From Syntrophaceae bacterium (GTDB taxonomy: Bacteria > Desulfobacterota > Desulfomonilia > Desulfomonilales > Desulfomonilaceae), in the NCBI GenBank assembly GCA_031292235.1, contig JARLHM010000083.1, positions 1-35,261 on the forward strand: 35,261 nt of DNA. The letters are read 5' to 3'. Positions 2,014 to 24,347 of the stretch are shown piece by piece. The first letter of the stretch is position 1; every line of letters starts with the position of its first letter. The translations under genes were made by a program, and so were the position numbers. Below the pieces are notes generated by a model. It was given only the letters and a program-made list of their open reading frames with translations. It did not search any database and was not told where the DNA came from.

Positions 2014-2404
2014 CTATATTGAACCTCGTAAAAAAGTTCTTGATTCCTATCAATTAAACGTTTAGAGGTAAGAATAAGGAACAGCGAAAAGGGGAGTGAA
2101 TTTATCAAAATTCCTTGTAATTCCTTAAATCGGCGTTTAGAATCAGATTCGTTCTTGAACCCTTGAAAAACAATTATCCCTGGCATAGCTGAAATTGACT
2201 GGGAGGCGTGTTTACAATATTTGAGAAACGCGTTCGGTCGTCGTAACAAATGTGGCGGCTTTAAATGGGATTAACTTTGAAATCCTGTTTGAATCGCTTT
2301 TGTGATATGCAGCGGATTAGCTGTATTTCAAAATACGGAACCGTTAACATTGAAAATTTATTTTGTTGAAACATGTAGCGCCACGTAGGCGTGAGGAGAG
2401 GAAC
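2014..2404. other. Divergent intergenic region
   Basis: About 390 bases between two divergently transcribed genes. A 79-codon minus-strand frame here starts with TTG, has no ribosome-binding site and no recognisable content, so it was left out. A candidate promoter for the rightward gene is at 2195-2223. Confidence 0.5.
2195..2223 (+). promoter_or_regulatory. Candidate promoter for the 2405 gene
   Basis: TTGACT and TATTTG are spaced by 17 bases. The -35 is good and the -10 is weak. It would give a leader of roughly 175 bases before the ATG at 2405. Confidence 0.3.
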
Positions 2405-3145
2405 ATGCCCAAGAAACCTCCCAGACGGGATCCAATAATAGTTTACAAAAGAGAGGAAAAGGGGCTTAAGCCTTTTTTACAGGGAGCCAGAGGCCTTAGA
2501 TTTGGACCGACTCCTCAGAAACCCAAAAAATTTAAAGAGCCCAAAGTGGTCGTCCCTGAAAAGGTGCGTCAGAATCTGGCCAACCTTGAGGAGATCAATA
2601 ACTTTCCATCTCCTGAAAGGGAAATTGCCAAAGCCTGCTATTATATGTGTTTCCTGGTCCATGAAACCAAAACGACTACAGATCTTTTCCCGCTAAAACA
2701 CAATGTGCTTGAAAAGATTTTTAAGAGCGGGCACAGTTGTCTGACTATAAACTATGTGCGTCGCGGAGACAGAGAAGTCTACACACTGTCCCCGGAGGCG
2801 AAAAAGAAGTGGGAGAACGAAACTAATTCCAACAAACATCACATCAGGATGTATCTGACGCAAAAATGTAAGATTGACTACGAGGAAGGATACTTCGATC
2901 TTTACCACTTCCACGTTGTTATGGAACCTTTCAGATTTACCTTTTATCTTCCGATTCATCAGGCGCCCTGGATTGACAAGAGGCGTATTTCGAAAAGAAA
3001 GTTTCATTATCCTCAAACAGTTGAATATGGCCTGGTGCGGGGCAAAGTGATAACGACTTCCCGTAAGGCGACCATGGTTCCAATAGAAGAGATACGCGCT
3101 GAATTCCAGAAACTTCTTGACGTCGAGATTACCAAGAAGAAATAG
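2405..3145 (+). CDS. Unrecognised basic protein (246 aa)
   Basis: I do not recognise a family. The start is placed at ATG 2405 because GAGGAGAGG lies about four bases upstream, whereas the longer frame from 2363 has no such site. The first 60 residues are strongly basic and proline-rich (MPKKPPRRDP..., PTPQKPKKFKEPK) and probably disordered, as in nucleic-acid-binding tails. A folded part follows from about residue 75 (EREIAKACYYMCFLVHET), then a segment rich in aromatic residues and histidine (YFDLYHFHVVMEPFRFTFYLP) and a lysine-ending C-terminus. There is no signal peptide or membrane span. It is transcribed alone, with divergent and widely spaced neighbours. A cytoplasmic nucleic-acid-associated role is only a guess from charge. 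Confidence 0.7.
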   Translation: MPKKPPRRDPIIVYKREEKGLKPFLQGARGLRFGPTPQKPKKFKEPKVVVPEKVRQNLANLEEINNFPSPEREIAKACYYMCFLVHETKTTTDLFPLKHNVLEKIFKSGHSCLTINYVRRGDREVYTLSPEAKKKWENETNSNKHHIRMYLTQKCKIDYEEGYFDLYHFHVVMEPFRFTFYLPIHQAPWIDKRRISKRKFHYPQTVEYGLVRGKVITTSRKATMVPIEEIRAEFQKLLDVEITKKK

Positions 3146-3599: not shown

Positions 3600-4475
3600 A
3601 TGCGAGAAACAGTCAACAAAAGGGTAATCTGGACAGTTAGGGACGTTCTCAAATGGACCTCCGAATATCTCAGGACAAAAGGATGCGACTCTCCCCGATT
3701 GGACTCCGAATTATTGTTGGCCCATACCCTTGGTATCGACAGACTCCGGTTGTTCTTGGATTATGACCGCCCACTTAGCGACAAAGAGCGTAAAAAATAT
3801 CGCGAACTCGTGCGAAGGAGAGCCTCCAGAGAACCGGTGGCTTTAATCACGGGTAAAAGGGAGTTCTGGTCTCTCCAAATAACGGTCAATCCGGGAGTTT
3901 TAATCCCCCGTCCGGAAACAGAAATTCTTGTTGAAGTAGTTCTTGATCAATGCAAAACTCTAACAGGTTGTTCGGTTCTAGAAATTGGTTGCGGGTCCGG
4001 CGCTGTCTTCTGCGCTATATCGAGTGAACGCCACGACATTGAGTTGTACGCATGTGATATTTCTTTGTGCGCCCTTAGTTGCGCTTCCATCAACGCGTCA
4101 GTTAGCTCGAGCGTAAACCGTGTCCATATCTTCGCCTCCGACCTTCTCGAATCTGTTCGGTCAGGCCCTGTTTTCGACATAATCTTTTCCAATCCGCCTT
4201 ACATCCCTTCCAGTCTTATAGACAACCTAGAGCCGGAAATCCGGGAATTCGAGCCATGTTGTGCGCTCGACGGCGGCATCGATGGTCTAGCAACCATAAG
4301 GCGGTTGATTTCTGGGTCGAGAAATTGTTTGAAACCAAAAGGTAATTTGATATTGGAAATCGGGGATCAACAATCTGAAGAAGTTGAACGCTTGTTGAAA
4401 TTGAATGATTTCTCAGAAATCCGAACCTATACTGATCTGAGTGGTAAAATTCGTGTGTTAAAGGCGGTTCTGTAA
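3600..4475 (+). CDS. prmC: Peptide chain release factor N5-glutamine methyltransferase
   Basis: PrmC (HemK) methylates the glutamine of the GGQ motif in release factors RF1 and RF2, using S-adenosylmethionine, in the cytoplasm. The 291 residues match the family length of about 280-290. The N-terminal helical substrate-binding domain (LLAHTLGIDRLRLFLDYDRPLSDKE) leads into REPVALITGKREFW and IPRPETEILVE (about residues 101-112). The methyltransferase motif I is LEIGCGSGA (about 127-135) and the catalytic NPPY is at 198-201. The ribosome-binding site before ATG 3600 is poor. The usual upstream partner prfA is missing, and the gene instead abuts an uncharacterised gene downstream with no gap. Confidence 0.95.
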   Translation: MRETVNKRVIWTVRDVLKWTSEYLRTKGCDSPRLDSELLLAHTLGIDRLRLFLDYDRPLSDKERKKYRELVRRRASREPVALITGKREFWSLQITVNPGVLIPRPETEILVEVVLDQCKTLTGCSVLEIGCGSGAVFCAISSERHDIELYACDISLCALSCASINASVSSSVNRVHIFASDLLESVRSGPVFDIIFSNPPYIPSSLIDNLEPEIREFEPCCALDGGIDGLATIRRLISGSRNCLKPKGNLILEIGDQQSEEVERLLKLNDFSEIRTYTDLSGKIRVLKAVL

Positions 4476-5108
4476 TTGCGATTCATTTTAATTGGTTTTG
4501 GGAAATTTGGACGGCTGTCTTTTGATAGACTTAGAGCTACCTTTGTGGATGCTGAGTTTATAATTGTGGACCCAAGTATAGAACAGAGTTCGGTTATTTC
4601 TGATGCCAAAATCAGGCCAATTCCCGCTGGCGGCGTTGAATTCCTCCTAAATTATGATCAGTTGTCCGAAACCGACTTAATCGTTCCAGTGGCGCCGTTG
4701 CATATCGCTGGGGCCTATATTGGGGCCTATTACAGCGGGTCCGAATATTCAAGCTTACCTGTAGGACTGGCTGACCACTTTAAAAACCTTTGGTTAATTG
4801 ACCATGCGACACTCTGTGTGAGCAACGCAAATTTCATTTGTCCGGATGACTGCCCGGAAGGCGATACCTGCACAATAACTGGCGAACGACGCATGCCGAT
4901 GTACGAGAAGATCGAGTGTCTAAAATTTCCGGGTTTTGAGATACGCGTCATAAGAAGCTTTCAGTTGGCGCCAGGCGTTGGCGGGTACACTTTAGGCTCT
5001 CTGATATCAATTAGGGATTCTGTCGCTTCGGGCCAAAAATACGTCATAGCCACTTCTTGTAAATGTCACGCCATCCTTTCCGCAATTAGAGTGGGACTTA
5101 AGAATTGA
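4476..5108 (+). CDS. Unrecognised cysteine-rich protein with Rossmann-like N-terminus
   Basis: I do not recognise the family. The frame begins with TTG immediately after the prmC TAA, so translation is probably coupled. Residues 1-31 (MRFILIGFGKFG... FIIVDP) look like the first beta-alpha-beta of a nucleotide-binding Rossmann fold, with GFGKFG in place of GxGxxG and an acidic residue at the end of strand two. The middle is hydrophobic but lacks a clear membrane span. Cysteines cluster at 114, 122, 126, 132 and 148, with CKCH at 195-198, and the segment CPDDCPEGDTC recalls a metal or iron-sulfur site. A redox or metal-binding role is inferred only from this. The length is 210 residues. Confidence 0.75.
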   Translation: MRFILIGFGKFGRLSFDRLRATFVDAEFIIVDPSIEQSSVISDAKIRPIPAGGVEFLLNYDQLSETDLIVPVAPLHIAGAYIGAYYSGSEYSSLPVGLADHFKNLWLIDHATLCVSNANFICPDDCPEGDTCTITGERRMPMYEKIECLKFPGFEIRVIRSFQLAPGVGGYTLGSLISIRDSVASGQKYVIATSCKCHAILSAIRVGLKN

Positions 5109-5927: not shown

Positions 5928-7658
5928 TTATTGGGCGCGCTCCATAAAAAAGCGAATAGCAGCTTTCTTTTTAGAGGCTGGTAGGCTTTTATAAAAGCTG
6001 TTTAGTTCATTTGACGAAAATTCCAGCTCAAATTCTCCGTTGCTACTTTTGTCAGCTTTTGGAGGCAAGTGGCTAGACACAGAATCAAGAAACGGGCCAA
6101 TTTCTGAAACGGACAGAGATCTGACTTCCCGCTTCACGAATTTGGGATCCATGGCCCAAGCTTCGAAGAATAGATCCGGAAAGAATTCCGCCCTTATACA
6201 CGATTGAAACAAAATCTTCCGGATTCTGAGGCTTCCATCCCTGAACTCAACTAAAGCCTGTCCCCGGTCCAATTGAGGTGGCGCTACAGCCCGTAAGACC
6301 CCACACTGATCTATTTCCGGAAGCGAAGCCAATGTTTCCAGGTCCTCCAACTCAAGAGAAATAACAGCAATGGCCTCTTTGATTTTTGGGACTATTGCTT
6401 TAATTGAGTCGTTGTCCATGCATTCCAACAGGTCGATGAACTCGGGGCCTGAGAATTCTCCTAAGCGGACGTATTCGCCAAGCATTTTCTGGTGCGGCCT
6501 CAAGTCATGAAAAAGCCTGATAACCTGGTCCGGGGTGAGGGATTCCCAAGGCAAATGCTCAACCACATTTTGAAGGTCTGTTACAGGTAATCCGGCCAGT
6601 CTCTCGACTAACGTCTCAAACTCAAACTCATCAAATCCACCGGACGCCGTAACTAGCTGTTCAAGCTCATCGAGTTTATCGGAAAGTATAACAATGCGCT
6701 CCCACCTTTTAAAGAATATCGCAGGAGAAGGAGAAGATACTGTCTTCCAATCATTTACAATCGTAGTCACCATTTTCTGAATTGTTCTAATGATCTCTTT
6801 GGCTAACAGAGAAGCTTCATCCTCACTCATGCCATGGCCAAGTTCATGAATTACGTCAATTACAGCTCCCTCGATCTGAAATGGAAAAGGTTCCTCGACT
6901 AGATTCCAGTCTATGGATTCCAAGAACTCTCTGATTTCAAGAACACTCAAGGCTATTGGGGTTTTTGTCTCCAAATAGCCTGAGATCACCAAAGTATTTA
7001 TTAGAGCCTCTCGAATCGAATCAACCTCTGACAGGTTTTCCGCAATAACAAAAGGTGAACGATTGAGCATCTTGAAAGGAAGCGCATCCTTAAGTTTTAG
7101 GATAAATTGGTAACGATTCAACTCAGACTCATAGTATTCCAAGATAGACAATGATGTGAAAAGATCGTCTTCAAGAGTCAGAGATTTTATCGAATACAAT
7201 TCTCCTTCATTAAAAACACTCATCTTGGCAAGAGTTTGACATGCCAACTCACTCAAACAGTCGTATTCCTTACTATTAACAAGTATTTGGATTCGGTCGT
7301 TGAGGAGAAGCTTTTTCCACTCATTCCTTAGGCTCACGATCCTCGTGTACGCCAACCTGAATAAATCGACAGGGGTTAAATCCATTAGGTAAGCTACTCC
7401 CTCATCGATTTCTCCTTTGCTCTTGATCTCAAGCCCGATGCTGACAAGCTTGAAGACCGTTTGCTGGACCTTAGCCAATTGTTCGACAGACCTAAAATCA
7501 ATCTCATTCTGTAAAACATATTTGTTGGCCATGGCTACAGAAATACGAACAATTTCGTCTGCTCTTTCGTGAGCCAATTTGCCCTGCTGAATCCCACGTT
7601 CAACAACTCTGGCAATAAACGATTGCTCATCATGAATTACGAGACCGAATTTTTCCAT
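5928..7658 (-). CDS. Unrecognised large acidic helical protein downstream of efp
   Basis: I do not recognise a named family. The frame opens with TTG at 7667, but ATG 7658 (MEKFGLVIHDEQSF) looks the better start, ten bases after the efp stop; neither has a strong ribosome-binding site. The protein is about 576 residues, rich in Glu, Asp and Leu, almost certainly mostly helical, and without signal peptide or membrane span. It contains leucine-rich stretches such as LVERLAGLPVTDLQNVVEHLPWESLTPDQVIRLF and a HELGHGMSEDEAS segment. This is not a credible HExxH zinc site, since the sequence reads HELGH without the glutamate placement. The tight spacing suggests co-transcription with efp. Function is unknown; a role near translation is inferred from context only. 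Confidence 0.75.
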   Translation of the reverse strand: MEKFGLVIHDEQSFIARVVERGIQQGKLAHERADEIVRISVAMANKYVLQNEIDFRSVEQLAKVQQTVFKLVSIGLEIKSKGEIDEGVAYLMDLTPVDLFRLAYTRIVSLRNEWKKLLLNDRIQILVNSKEYDCLSELACQTLAKMSVFNEGELYSIKSLTLEDDLFTSLSILEYYESELNRYQFILKLKDALPFKMLNRSPFVIAENLSEVDSIREALINTLVISGYLETKTPIALSVLEIREFLESIDWNLVEEPFPFQIEGAVIDVIHELGHGMSEDEASLLAKEIIRTIQKMVTTIVNDWKTVSSPSPAIFFKRWERIVILSDKLDELEQLVTASGGFDEFEFETLVERLAGLPVTDLQNVVEHLPWESLTPDQVIRLFHDLRPHQKMLGEYVRLGEFSGPEFIDLLECMDNDSIKAIVPKIKEAIAVISLELEDLETLASLPEIDQCGVLRAVAPPQLDRGQALVEFRDGSLRIRKILFQSCIRAEFFPDLFFEAWAMDPKFVKREVRSLSVSEIGPFLDSVSSHLPPKADKSSNGEFELEFSSNELNSFYKSLPASKKKAAIRFFMERAQ

Positions 7659-7668
7659 TTGGACCAAT

Positions 7669-8229
7669 CTAGCGAGCGCGCTCGATATATTTTCCTGTAC
7701 GGGTATCTATCTTCAAAACATCTCCTTCATTTACAAAGAGTGGCACCTGAACAGTCATACCTGTTTCCAGCGTCGCCGGCTTGGTAGCTCCAGCCGCTGT
7801 ATCTCCTCGTAATCCAGGATCGGTTGTCGTCACGGTAAGTTCAACAAATATGGGAACCTCCACACCAATAGGTTTGGCGTTGTGGAAAAGGACAGTGACA
7901 TTGACATTTTCTTGGAGGTAATTTTTGGCGTCACCCAGGTTCTGTTCGACCAAAAATAACTGCTCATAGGTTTCACTATCCATAAAGTGATATTCCCCTT
8001 CACTTTCGTAGAGAAACTGCATCTGCTTTTCCTCGAGGTCCGGTTTGTCGAGTTTCTCGCCTGACCTGAAAGTTCTGTCAATTACATTTCCTGTAAGCAG
8101 ACTCTTTAAAGTCGTACGGACAAATGCCCCACCCTTGCCAGGCTTCACATGCAAGAAATCCGCGATTGTAAATGGTTCACCGTTAATTTCGATTTTGAGC
8201 CCTTTTCTGAAATCTGAGGTTGAATACAT
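7669..8229 (-). CDS. efp: Translation elongation factor P
   Basis: EF-P binds between the P and E sites and relieves ribosome stalling at polyproline stretches. The 186-residue length is typical. The N-terminal KOW-like domain contains VKPGKGGAFVRTTLK, in which Lys32 is at the loop tip that carries the post-translational modification in many bacteria. The middle and C-terminal OB folds include DRTFRSGEKL, VEVPIFVELTVTTTDPGLRGDTAAGATKPATLETG and VPLFVNEGDVLKIDTRTGKYIERAR. No modification enzyme (epmA, epmB, earP or similar) is in the window. It lies between a peptidase gene and the 5928 gene on the same strand. The ribosome-binding site is a weak AAAGAAAG. Confidence 0.97.
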   Translation of the reverse strand: MYSTSDFRKGLKIEINGEPFTIADFLHVKPGKGGAFVRTTLKSLLTGNVIDRTFRSGEKLDKPDLEEKQMQFLYESEGEYHFMDSETYEQLFLVEQNLGDAKNYLQENVNVTVLFHNAKPIGVEVPIFVELTVTTTDPGLRGDTAAGATKPATLETGMTVQVPLFVNEGDVLKIDTRTGKYIERAR

Positions 8230-24271: not shown

Positions 24272-24347
24272 GCGGGCATAGCTCAGTTGGTAGAGTGCAA
24301 GCTTCCCAAGCTTGATGTCGCGGGTTCGAGCCCCGTTGCCCGCTCCA
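24272..24347 (+). tRNA. tRNA-Gly (anticodon CCC)
   Basis: A complete cloverleaf can be drawn by eye. The acceptor GCGGGCA pairs with TGCCCGC, the D arm is GCTC/GAGT, and the anticodon stem CAAGC/GCTTG closes the loop TTCCCAA, giving anticodon CCC. The T arm is GCGGG/CCCGT with loop TTCGAGC. The variable loop has five bases, U73 is the discriminator and CCA is encoded. It reads GGG codons. It has its own promoter and terminator and lies just before the rimP operon. Confidence 0.95.

Follow-up and report, generated by a model that had tools for sequence, protein, structure and literature searches.

Gene X, an open reading frame at positions 4476-5108 of the forward strand of the window (the whole 35,261-nucleotide stretch of DNA that was analysed), encodes a 210-aa product, protein X. 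We propose, with a confidence somewhat short of even, that this product is a metalloprotein, free-standing and NAD(H)-binding, whose metal site is probably of the Fe-S type, and that it would serve anaerobes using C1 and corrinoid chemistry as a redox or maturation factor. The Rossmann half of the protein is ordinary, and in the predicted structure the novel part is the C-terminal Cys/His domain, whose fold was unmatched among PDB chains. The features of this locus, with the evidence for each, are the following.

3600..4475, + strand: prmC, given as context and outside the gene X family (TIGR03534, 266 bits; adjacency survey).
4461..4478, + strand: SD-like AAGGCGG within the prmC 3' end, the prmC stop TAA (4473-4475) and the abutting TTG (sequence; likewise in loci L021-L024).
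4476..5105, + strand: gene X, TTG start, TGA stop codon at 5106-5108, 210 aa (relatives; dN/dS).
4476..4715, + strand: Rossmann nucleotide-binding half, residues 1-80, with GFGKFG at 7-12, acidic D32, P71 and H76 (profile, fold, conservation).
4773..5105, + strand: C-terminal domain without a matched fold, residues 100-210 (modelled alone by AF2, pLDDT 92.7; no PDB match).
4839..4871, + strand: C122-P-D-D-C126-x5-C132 loop, residues 122-132 (C122, C126 and C132 in 98/98 X-bearing genomes).
5058..5069, + strand: C195-x-C197-H198 turn in a predicted beta hairpin, 188-194/198-205 (C197 and H198 in 98/98, C195 in 95/98; DSSP of the model).

Relatives of protein X showed 27-88% identity to it, and the dN/dS of gene X was approximately 0.36 (0.059/0.164) and 0.30 (0.160/0.532) against two relatives, a third giving no computable dS. 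Together with the residues that are kept across the family (see below), these values indicate that gene X is a real gene, beyond chance. Its upstream neighbor is a genuine PrmC, with a TIGR03534 score of 266 bits versus a cut-off of 199. The original prediction placed the TTG of gene X right after the prmC stop, and the sequence confirmed that this start codon abuts the prmC TAA; the accompanying description of the two genes as fused in translation was mistaken, as a stop codon parts them. The AAGGCGG stretch lies ahead of the gene X start in the window and in loci L021-L024, and this SD-like stretch makes translational coupling from prmC to gene X plausible. In the window's family, translation of gene X probably takes place on the prmC mRNA, an arrangement that would reflect operon organisation and not a shared function. 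A sequence search for signs of a mobile-element origin gave no plasmid match to protein X. Elsewhere in the window we observed a 579-aa protein at 5928-7667 (- strand) with a DUF6178 match (2.6e-9), an ORF at 7669-8229, EF-P-like by inspection, that lies one base from it, and a tRNA gene at 24272-24344 (+ strand; Rfam).

The distribution of gene X was evaluated in 394 genomes of the window's phylum, with a minimum completeness of 90 and with the window's own 83% genome included. A profile search at E<=1e-40 identified gene X in 98 of these 394 genomes, at 99 places, G300 having two. At the looser threshold of E<=0.001, 144/394 genomes were matched, and the weaker matches inspected among those listed were short and confined to the Rossmann part. 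The E-values in this search left a gap from 7e-48 to 4e-16, the latter being a second place in G404 where gene X is split by a stop. Relatives were also present in 20 of 60 related genomes and at 66 loci of a wider contig collection, which was scanned with patterns containing CPDDC. One of these loci, L047, is labelled Aenigmatarchaeota archaeon and matches the deltaproteobacterial locus L046, so that it is probably misbinned. Homologues of protein X occur in Dethiosulfatarculus sandiegensis (L071) and Desulfatitalea alkaliphila (L080). In the phylum of the genome that carries locus L053, that genome was the sole one of 199 to match at E<=1e-15. Apparent fusions of gene X in G212 and G349 were rejected as chance open frames, because the long frames add only Arg/Pro/Gly-rich residues that do not look like coding sequence.

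When the phylum sample was divided by dsrA (E<=1e-80; 204 genomes) and cdhC (E<=1e-30; 250 genomes), gene X was present in 72/159 genomes with both genes, 16/91 with cdhC only, 8/45 with dsrA only and 2/99 with neither, counts that are uncorrected for phylogeny and by which it is rare where genes for both CODH/ACS and dissimilatory sulfite reductase are absent. With the curated dsrA cut-off (200 genomes in total), and likewise uncorrected, dsrA was found in 80 of the 98 X-bearing genomes versus 120 of the 296 others. Gene X is not an obligate sulfate-reduction gene, since 18 of the 98 genomes that carry it are without dsrA. We also rejected it as a strict Wood-Ljungdahl marker, as its tie to cdhC and dsrA is an association only, uncorrected for phylogeny; 162 of the 250 cdhC genomes were without gene X, and 10 of the 98 X-bearing genomes were without a cdhC match.

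A profile built from 20 relatives matched the Rossmann domains of KefC, KtrA and TrkA at E-values of 0.001-0.005. TrkA_N (PF02254) was matched by 12 of the 20 family members (best 3.3e-5), and protein X searched alone gave zero Pfam matches. In the VIA fold comparison the top row was KefC (9emb; Z 7.6, 2.1 A, 70 residues within residues 1-80), tied with other rows. Both marks of NAD(H) Rossmann proteins, a GxGxxG-type loop and an acid ending strand 2, were present: position 32 is Asp in 79 and Glu in 19 of the 98 X-bearing genomes, and is thus acidic in 98/98. Where Rossmann strand 2 ends in an acid, NADP is a less likely ligand than NAD(H) or an adenosine compound, and the presence of this acid in all 98 genomes suggests NAD(H), pointing to an N-terminal half that would bind NAD(H) and not NADP. 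The Rossmann-like nucleotide-binding start proposed originally is borne out by these matches and by glycines 7, 9 and 12, which, like G167 and G169, were found in 98/98 X-bearing genomes. P71, R139 and S161 were each kept in 97/98 genomes, and Q163 in 97/98 distinct rows. The NAD(P) Rossmann dehydrogenases (GAPDH, homospermidine synthase and UDP-sugar epimerases) are like protein X in the nucleotide-binding half, with weak profile and fold matches, but no common catalytic domain was found, and the C-terminal half of protein X was unmatched.

The window protein has cysteines at residues 114, 122, 126 and 132 and the sequence C195-K-C197-H198 near its C-terminus. The original prediction combined a cysteine cluster at 114-132 with this CKCH, and asked whether the four to six cysteines are conserved in homologues. 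Most of this cluster stood: C122, C126, C132, C197 and H198 were kept in 98/98 X-bearing genomes of the phylum and C195 in 95/98, so that four cysteines are invariant and all six Cys/His residues occur in 95/98 genomes, with the remaining three (G262, G332 and G363, which have Ser at 195) keeping five of the six. C114 did not stand, being Cys in just 5/98 genomes and in 9/98 rows of an overlapping sequence set. By this conservation, the actual motif is C-x3-C-x5-C plus (C)-x-C-H rather than the earlier four-cysteine run. The six residues were also invariant across the 68 sequences of alignment A2, from which L067 (where L018 lies) was excluded because a contig end cuts it. The start codons of relatives were set by rule, and some N-termini may be off. 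An earlier count of distinct rows had found all six residues in 98/98 rows covering the sites, two of 100 rows having been dropped because the sites were uncovered. Because part of that set came from the scan with patterns containing CPDDC, the residues were recounted per genome in the 98 genomes found by the profile search, and this count is preferred. As four cysteines and the histidine never vary, the recount left the weight given to each explanation as before.

In the model of protein X, DSSP assigned residues 122-132 mostly to loop and placed C195-C197 between strands 188-194 and 198-205, in a knuckle-like hairpin. The conserved ligand set of Cys and His expected of Fe-S or zinc proteins is present, and we infer that these residues would bind metal jointly. 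The model itself was confident, both for the whole protein (AlphaFold; pLDDT 95.6, pTM 0.90) and for residues 100-210 modelled alone (AF2; pLDDT 92.7). Foldseek searches of the PDB with the full model, and with residues 100-210, returned nothing at E<=1e-3; a profile of residues 100-210 matched no PDB sequence at E<=10, and a viral fold library gave no match at E<=1e-3. The best VIA score for residues 100-210 was Z 3.5 (946 chains), and the weak ketosynthase-like rows (Z up to 3.5) are not counted as a sign of kinship. Pfam gave its best matches to these residues at E 0.02-0.04, in between 1 and 4 of the 68 members, and these were unconvincing. Membership of protein X in Pfam, NCBIfam or PHROGs families was rejected, with nothing below E 0.2 (NCBIfam best 0.21, PHROGs 0.44, Pfam none). 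The parts of the literature that were accessible held no recognisable account of protein X, and the string 'CPDDC' appeared in them only in an unrelated context. The gene X family, carried by sulfate reducers and kindred anaerobic bacteria, is apparently undescribed, and the expectation that no well-described family would be confidently matched held in the Pfam, NCBIfam, PHROGs and PDB fold searches.

We considered whether the Cys/His residues might instead form a structural zinc site in an NAD(H)-dependent dehydrogenase or reductase of small metabolites, with R139, S161, Q163 and the PGxGG loop as a substrate pocket, an explanation that we regard as a real possibility, if a rather unlikely one. 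R139 and S161 (97/98 genomes), Q163 (97/98 rows), G167 and G169 (98/98 genomes) resemble an active site, and knuckle-like Cys pairs, as in the predicted hairpin, are also typical of zinc sites. However, zinc sites more usually show a C-x2-C than a C-x3-C spacing, the restriction of the gene to anaerobic lineages suits an Fe-S protein better, and no good match to a dehydrogenase family was obtained, the best being GAPDH-type matches of single members (4.9e-4 and 0.0013).

A decidedly unlikely alternative is that the cysteines bind no metal but serve as thiol-disulfide or persulfide carriers, for which NAD(H) would be the reductant. The cysteines are closely spaced, C195 is replaced by Ser in 3/98 genomes, and many of the hosts metabolise sulfur, as judged by dsrA in 80/98. 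The invariant H198 next to C197, together with the four cysteines that never vary among the 98 genomes, suits a metal site better, however, and the 18 genomes without dsrA also argue against such a carrier.

The resemblance of residues 1-80 to KefC, KtrA and TrkA, with KefC at the top of the fold list (although tied), could mean that protein X is an RCK/TrkA-related sensor of nucleotide or redox state that governs potassium transport, and at locus L053 the next downstream gene is trkA-like by inspection. Residues 1-80 share with the RCK (KTN) domains of TrkA, KtrA and Kef a GxGxFG loop, an acid closing strand 2 and the Rossmann order, but protein X alone misses the Pfam model PF02254, and its second half is an unmatched Cys/His domain. 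TrkA_C was absent among the seven families matched by 20 members (E<=0.1), the 210-aa chain contains no transporter or channel portion, and L053 had the sole trkA-like neighbor noticed. In the window there is no K+ transporter beside gene X and no linkage of the trkH/ktrB type, its neighbors being prmC and a TPR protein. We regard this explanation as highly unlikely.

The adjacency of gene X to prmC was limited to one part of the family. In the 60 related genomes, prmC was upstream of gene X at 17 of 20 loci, comprising 17/17 X-bearing loci of f1 (the window's own taxonomic family) and 0/3 outside f1; one f1 genome, G015, is without gene X. The spacing was mostly abutting or overlapping, with frames at least 127 bases apart in L014/L032. 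Among the 66 pattern-scan loci, prmC was beside gene X in 14, all with the f1 arrangement and largely from Desulfomonile/Desulfomonilaceae, and a phmmer search detected no prmC anywhere in the other 52 loci, several of which are shortened by contig ends. The recurrence of prmC adjacency, which the original prediction wanted checked in other Desulfobacterota, thus stood within f1, but as a trait of the whole family it failed outside f1, and a PrmC-linked function for the whole gene X family was rejected on this basis. In 10 of the 66 pattern-scan loci, an ORF related to the 260-aa ORF at 2363-3145 (+ strand) of the window, which has no Pfam match, lies upstream of prmC.

Outside f1 the neighborhoods of gene X were varied. 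RNase P RNA (rnpB) was just upstream in five of six other loci scanned (L031, L036, L038, L046 and L050, not L058), and downstream in loci of this type lie genes that clustering and inspection mark as yggT- and DUF167-like. Other neighbors were yggS/maf, HAD and TIM-barrel genes, and ispA/nth (the last by inspection); a NAGPA phosphodiester glycosidase was directly upstream in L139, L149 and L150 (Pfam), and a similar gene by inspection in L138, L057 and L059. A Pfam tally of 138 of 140 near neighbors from 39 pattern-scan loci, which leaves out two neighbors that were >900 aa or beyond the limit, showed no common partner and no B12 family among the best 25 of 114 families, Maf being the commonest with eight. 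Neighbor genes were delimited simply by taking the longest ORF, a crude rule that gives spurious antisense ORFs in high-GC contigs. A role for protein X in translation termination is unlikely because prmC adjacency is confined to one bacterial family, and we give very little credence to an assisting role toward PrmC or the release factors, for which the mostly abutting or overlapping prmC in 17/17 X-bearing f1 loci would speak, since prmC was not beside gene X in 3/20 related-genome loci (all non-f1), was undetected in 52/66 others (some short), and is to our knowledge near-universal, versus gene X in only 98/394 genomes of the phylum.

A different context was seen in f9, another family of the phylum sample, in which gene X was at most about 1.4 kb from a B12-binding (PF02310) or URO-D (PF01208) gene in 7/7 X-bearing genomes; roughly estimated, the probability of such proximity by chance in a single genome is about 2.6% (26 such genes in the 4.4 Mb of G164). 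The partners were of three types: a MeTr-type protein with a corrinoid protein, URO-D alone, and methylmalonyl-CoA mutase. By Pfam, the neighbors in L131 and L133 were B12-binding and Pterin_bind proteins, with URO-D added in L131 and DUF1638 in L133, and those in L134 were URO-D, C_GCAxxG_C_C and DUF6125; in L132 and L136 they were methylmalonyl-CoA mutase and epimerase by inspection. Six of the seven f9 genomes are without dsrA, G164 being the one that has it. Single cases elsewhere were a MetF-like gene beside L041 and CobO-like and DUF1638-like genes beside L085 (names by inspection). DUF6125-like genes lay directly beside gene X in f9 at L134, L135, L136 and L121 (Pfam-confirmed in L134); in L121 (G300:C89) the two gene X copies, with the DUF6125-like ORF between them, are clustered with a URO-D-like and an arginase-family gene.

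In four non-f9 genomes, picked partly after their context was seen, a B12-binding gene was 2.4 kb from gene X in G098 and 3.5 kb in G404, and among the matches listed the nearest B12/C1 gene on the contig was approximately 13 kb away in G062 and none was on the contig in G422, so that in two of the four no B12/C1-family gene lay closer than 10 kb on the contig. An HMM scan for B12/C1 genes around gene X took its seeds from near neighbors and was insensitive further out, and its results therefore give no near/far contrast. The B12/C1 context comes mostly from f9, a single family that was examined after URO-D had been seen in L121, and several of its loci share descent. The three genomes with Ser at position 195 (G262, G332 and G363; loci L134, L135 and L136), which keep the other five Cys/His residues, all belong to f9, and f9 may thus not speak for the subfamily of the window. 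For these reasons we treat the B12/C1 context as a lead and not as proof.

Under the explanation that we prefer, protein X would be soluble and free-standing, a metalloprotein of anaerobes that binds NAD(H) and in which the Cys/His residues would hold a metal near the nucleotide pocket, more likely as an Fe-S center than as zinc, with the four cysteines C122, C126, C132 and C197 as the putative Fe-S ligands. Electrons might then pass between NAD(H) and a target, or the redox state might be sensed, and protein X might serve in trans in the reactivation or maturation of oxygen-sensitive C1/corrinoid enzymes, both of these steps being proposed more tentatively than the metal site. The C1/corrinoid target is a minority extension of the metalloprotein explanation. 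In its fullest form, which we consider unlikely, protein X would be a new kind of Fe-S redox factor, linked to NAD(H) and with a Cys/His domain not seen before; it would reactivate the corrinoid and CODH/ACS enzymes of complete oxidisers among the anaerobes, or bring these enzymes to maturity, and its gene would be a core gene, standing free, across much of the Desulfobacterota. The RACo/RamA-type corrinoid activators, which carry ASKHA-type ATPase or ferredoxin domains, resemble protein X at most in role, as possible redox helpers of corrinoid enzymes (which the B12/C1 neighbors in f9 might suggest); unlike them, protein X and its relatives showed no ferredoxin or ASKHA-type domain among their Pfam matches.

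Gene X is thus an apparently undescribed, highly conserved gene in roughly one in four of the phylum's sampled genomes (98/394), many of which have dissimilatory sulfite reductase genes. It is also tractable, in that its product has 210 residues and is confidently modelled, the C-terminal domain is unmatched and the ligand set is clear. If the C1/corrinoid link is true, anaerobic one-carbon metabolism would gain a redox or maturation factor that has been missing from it.
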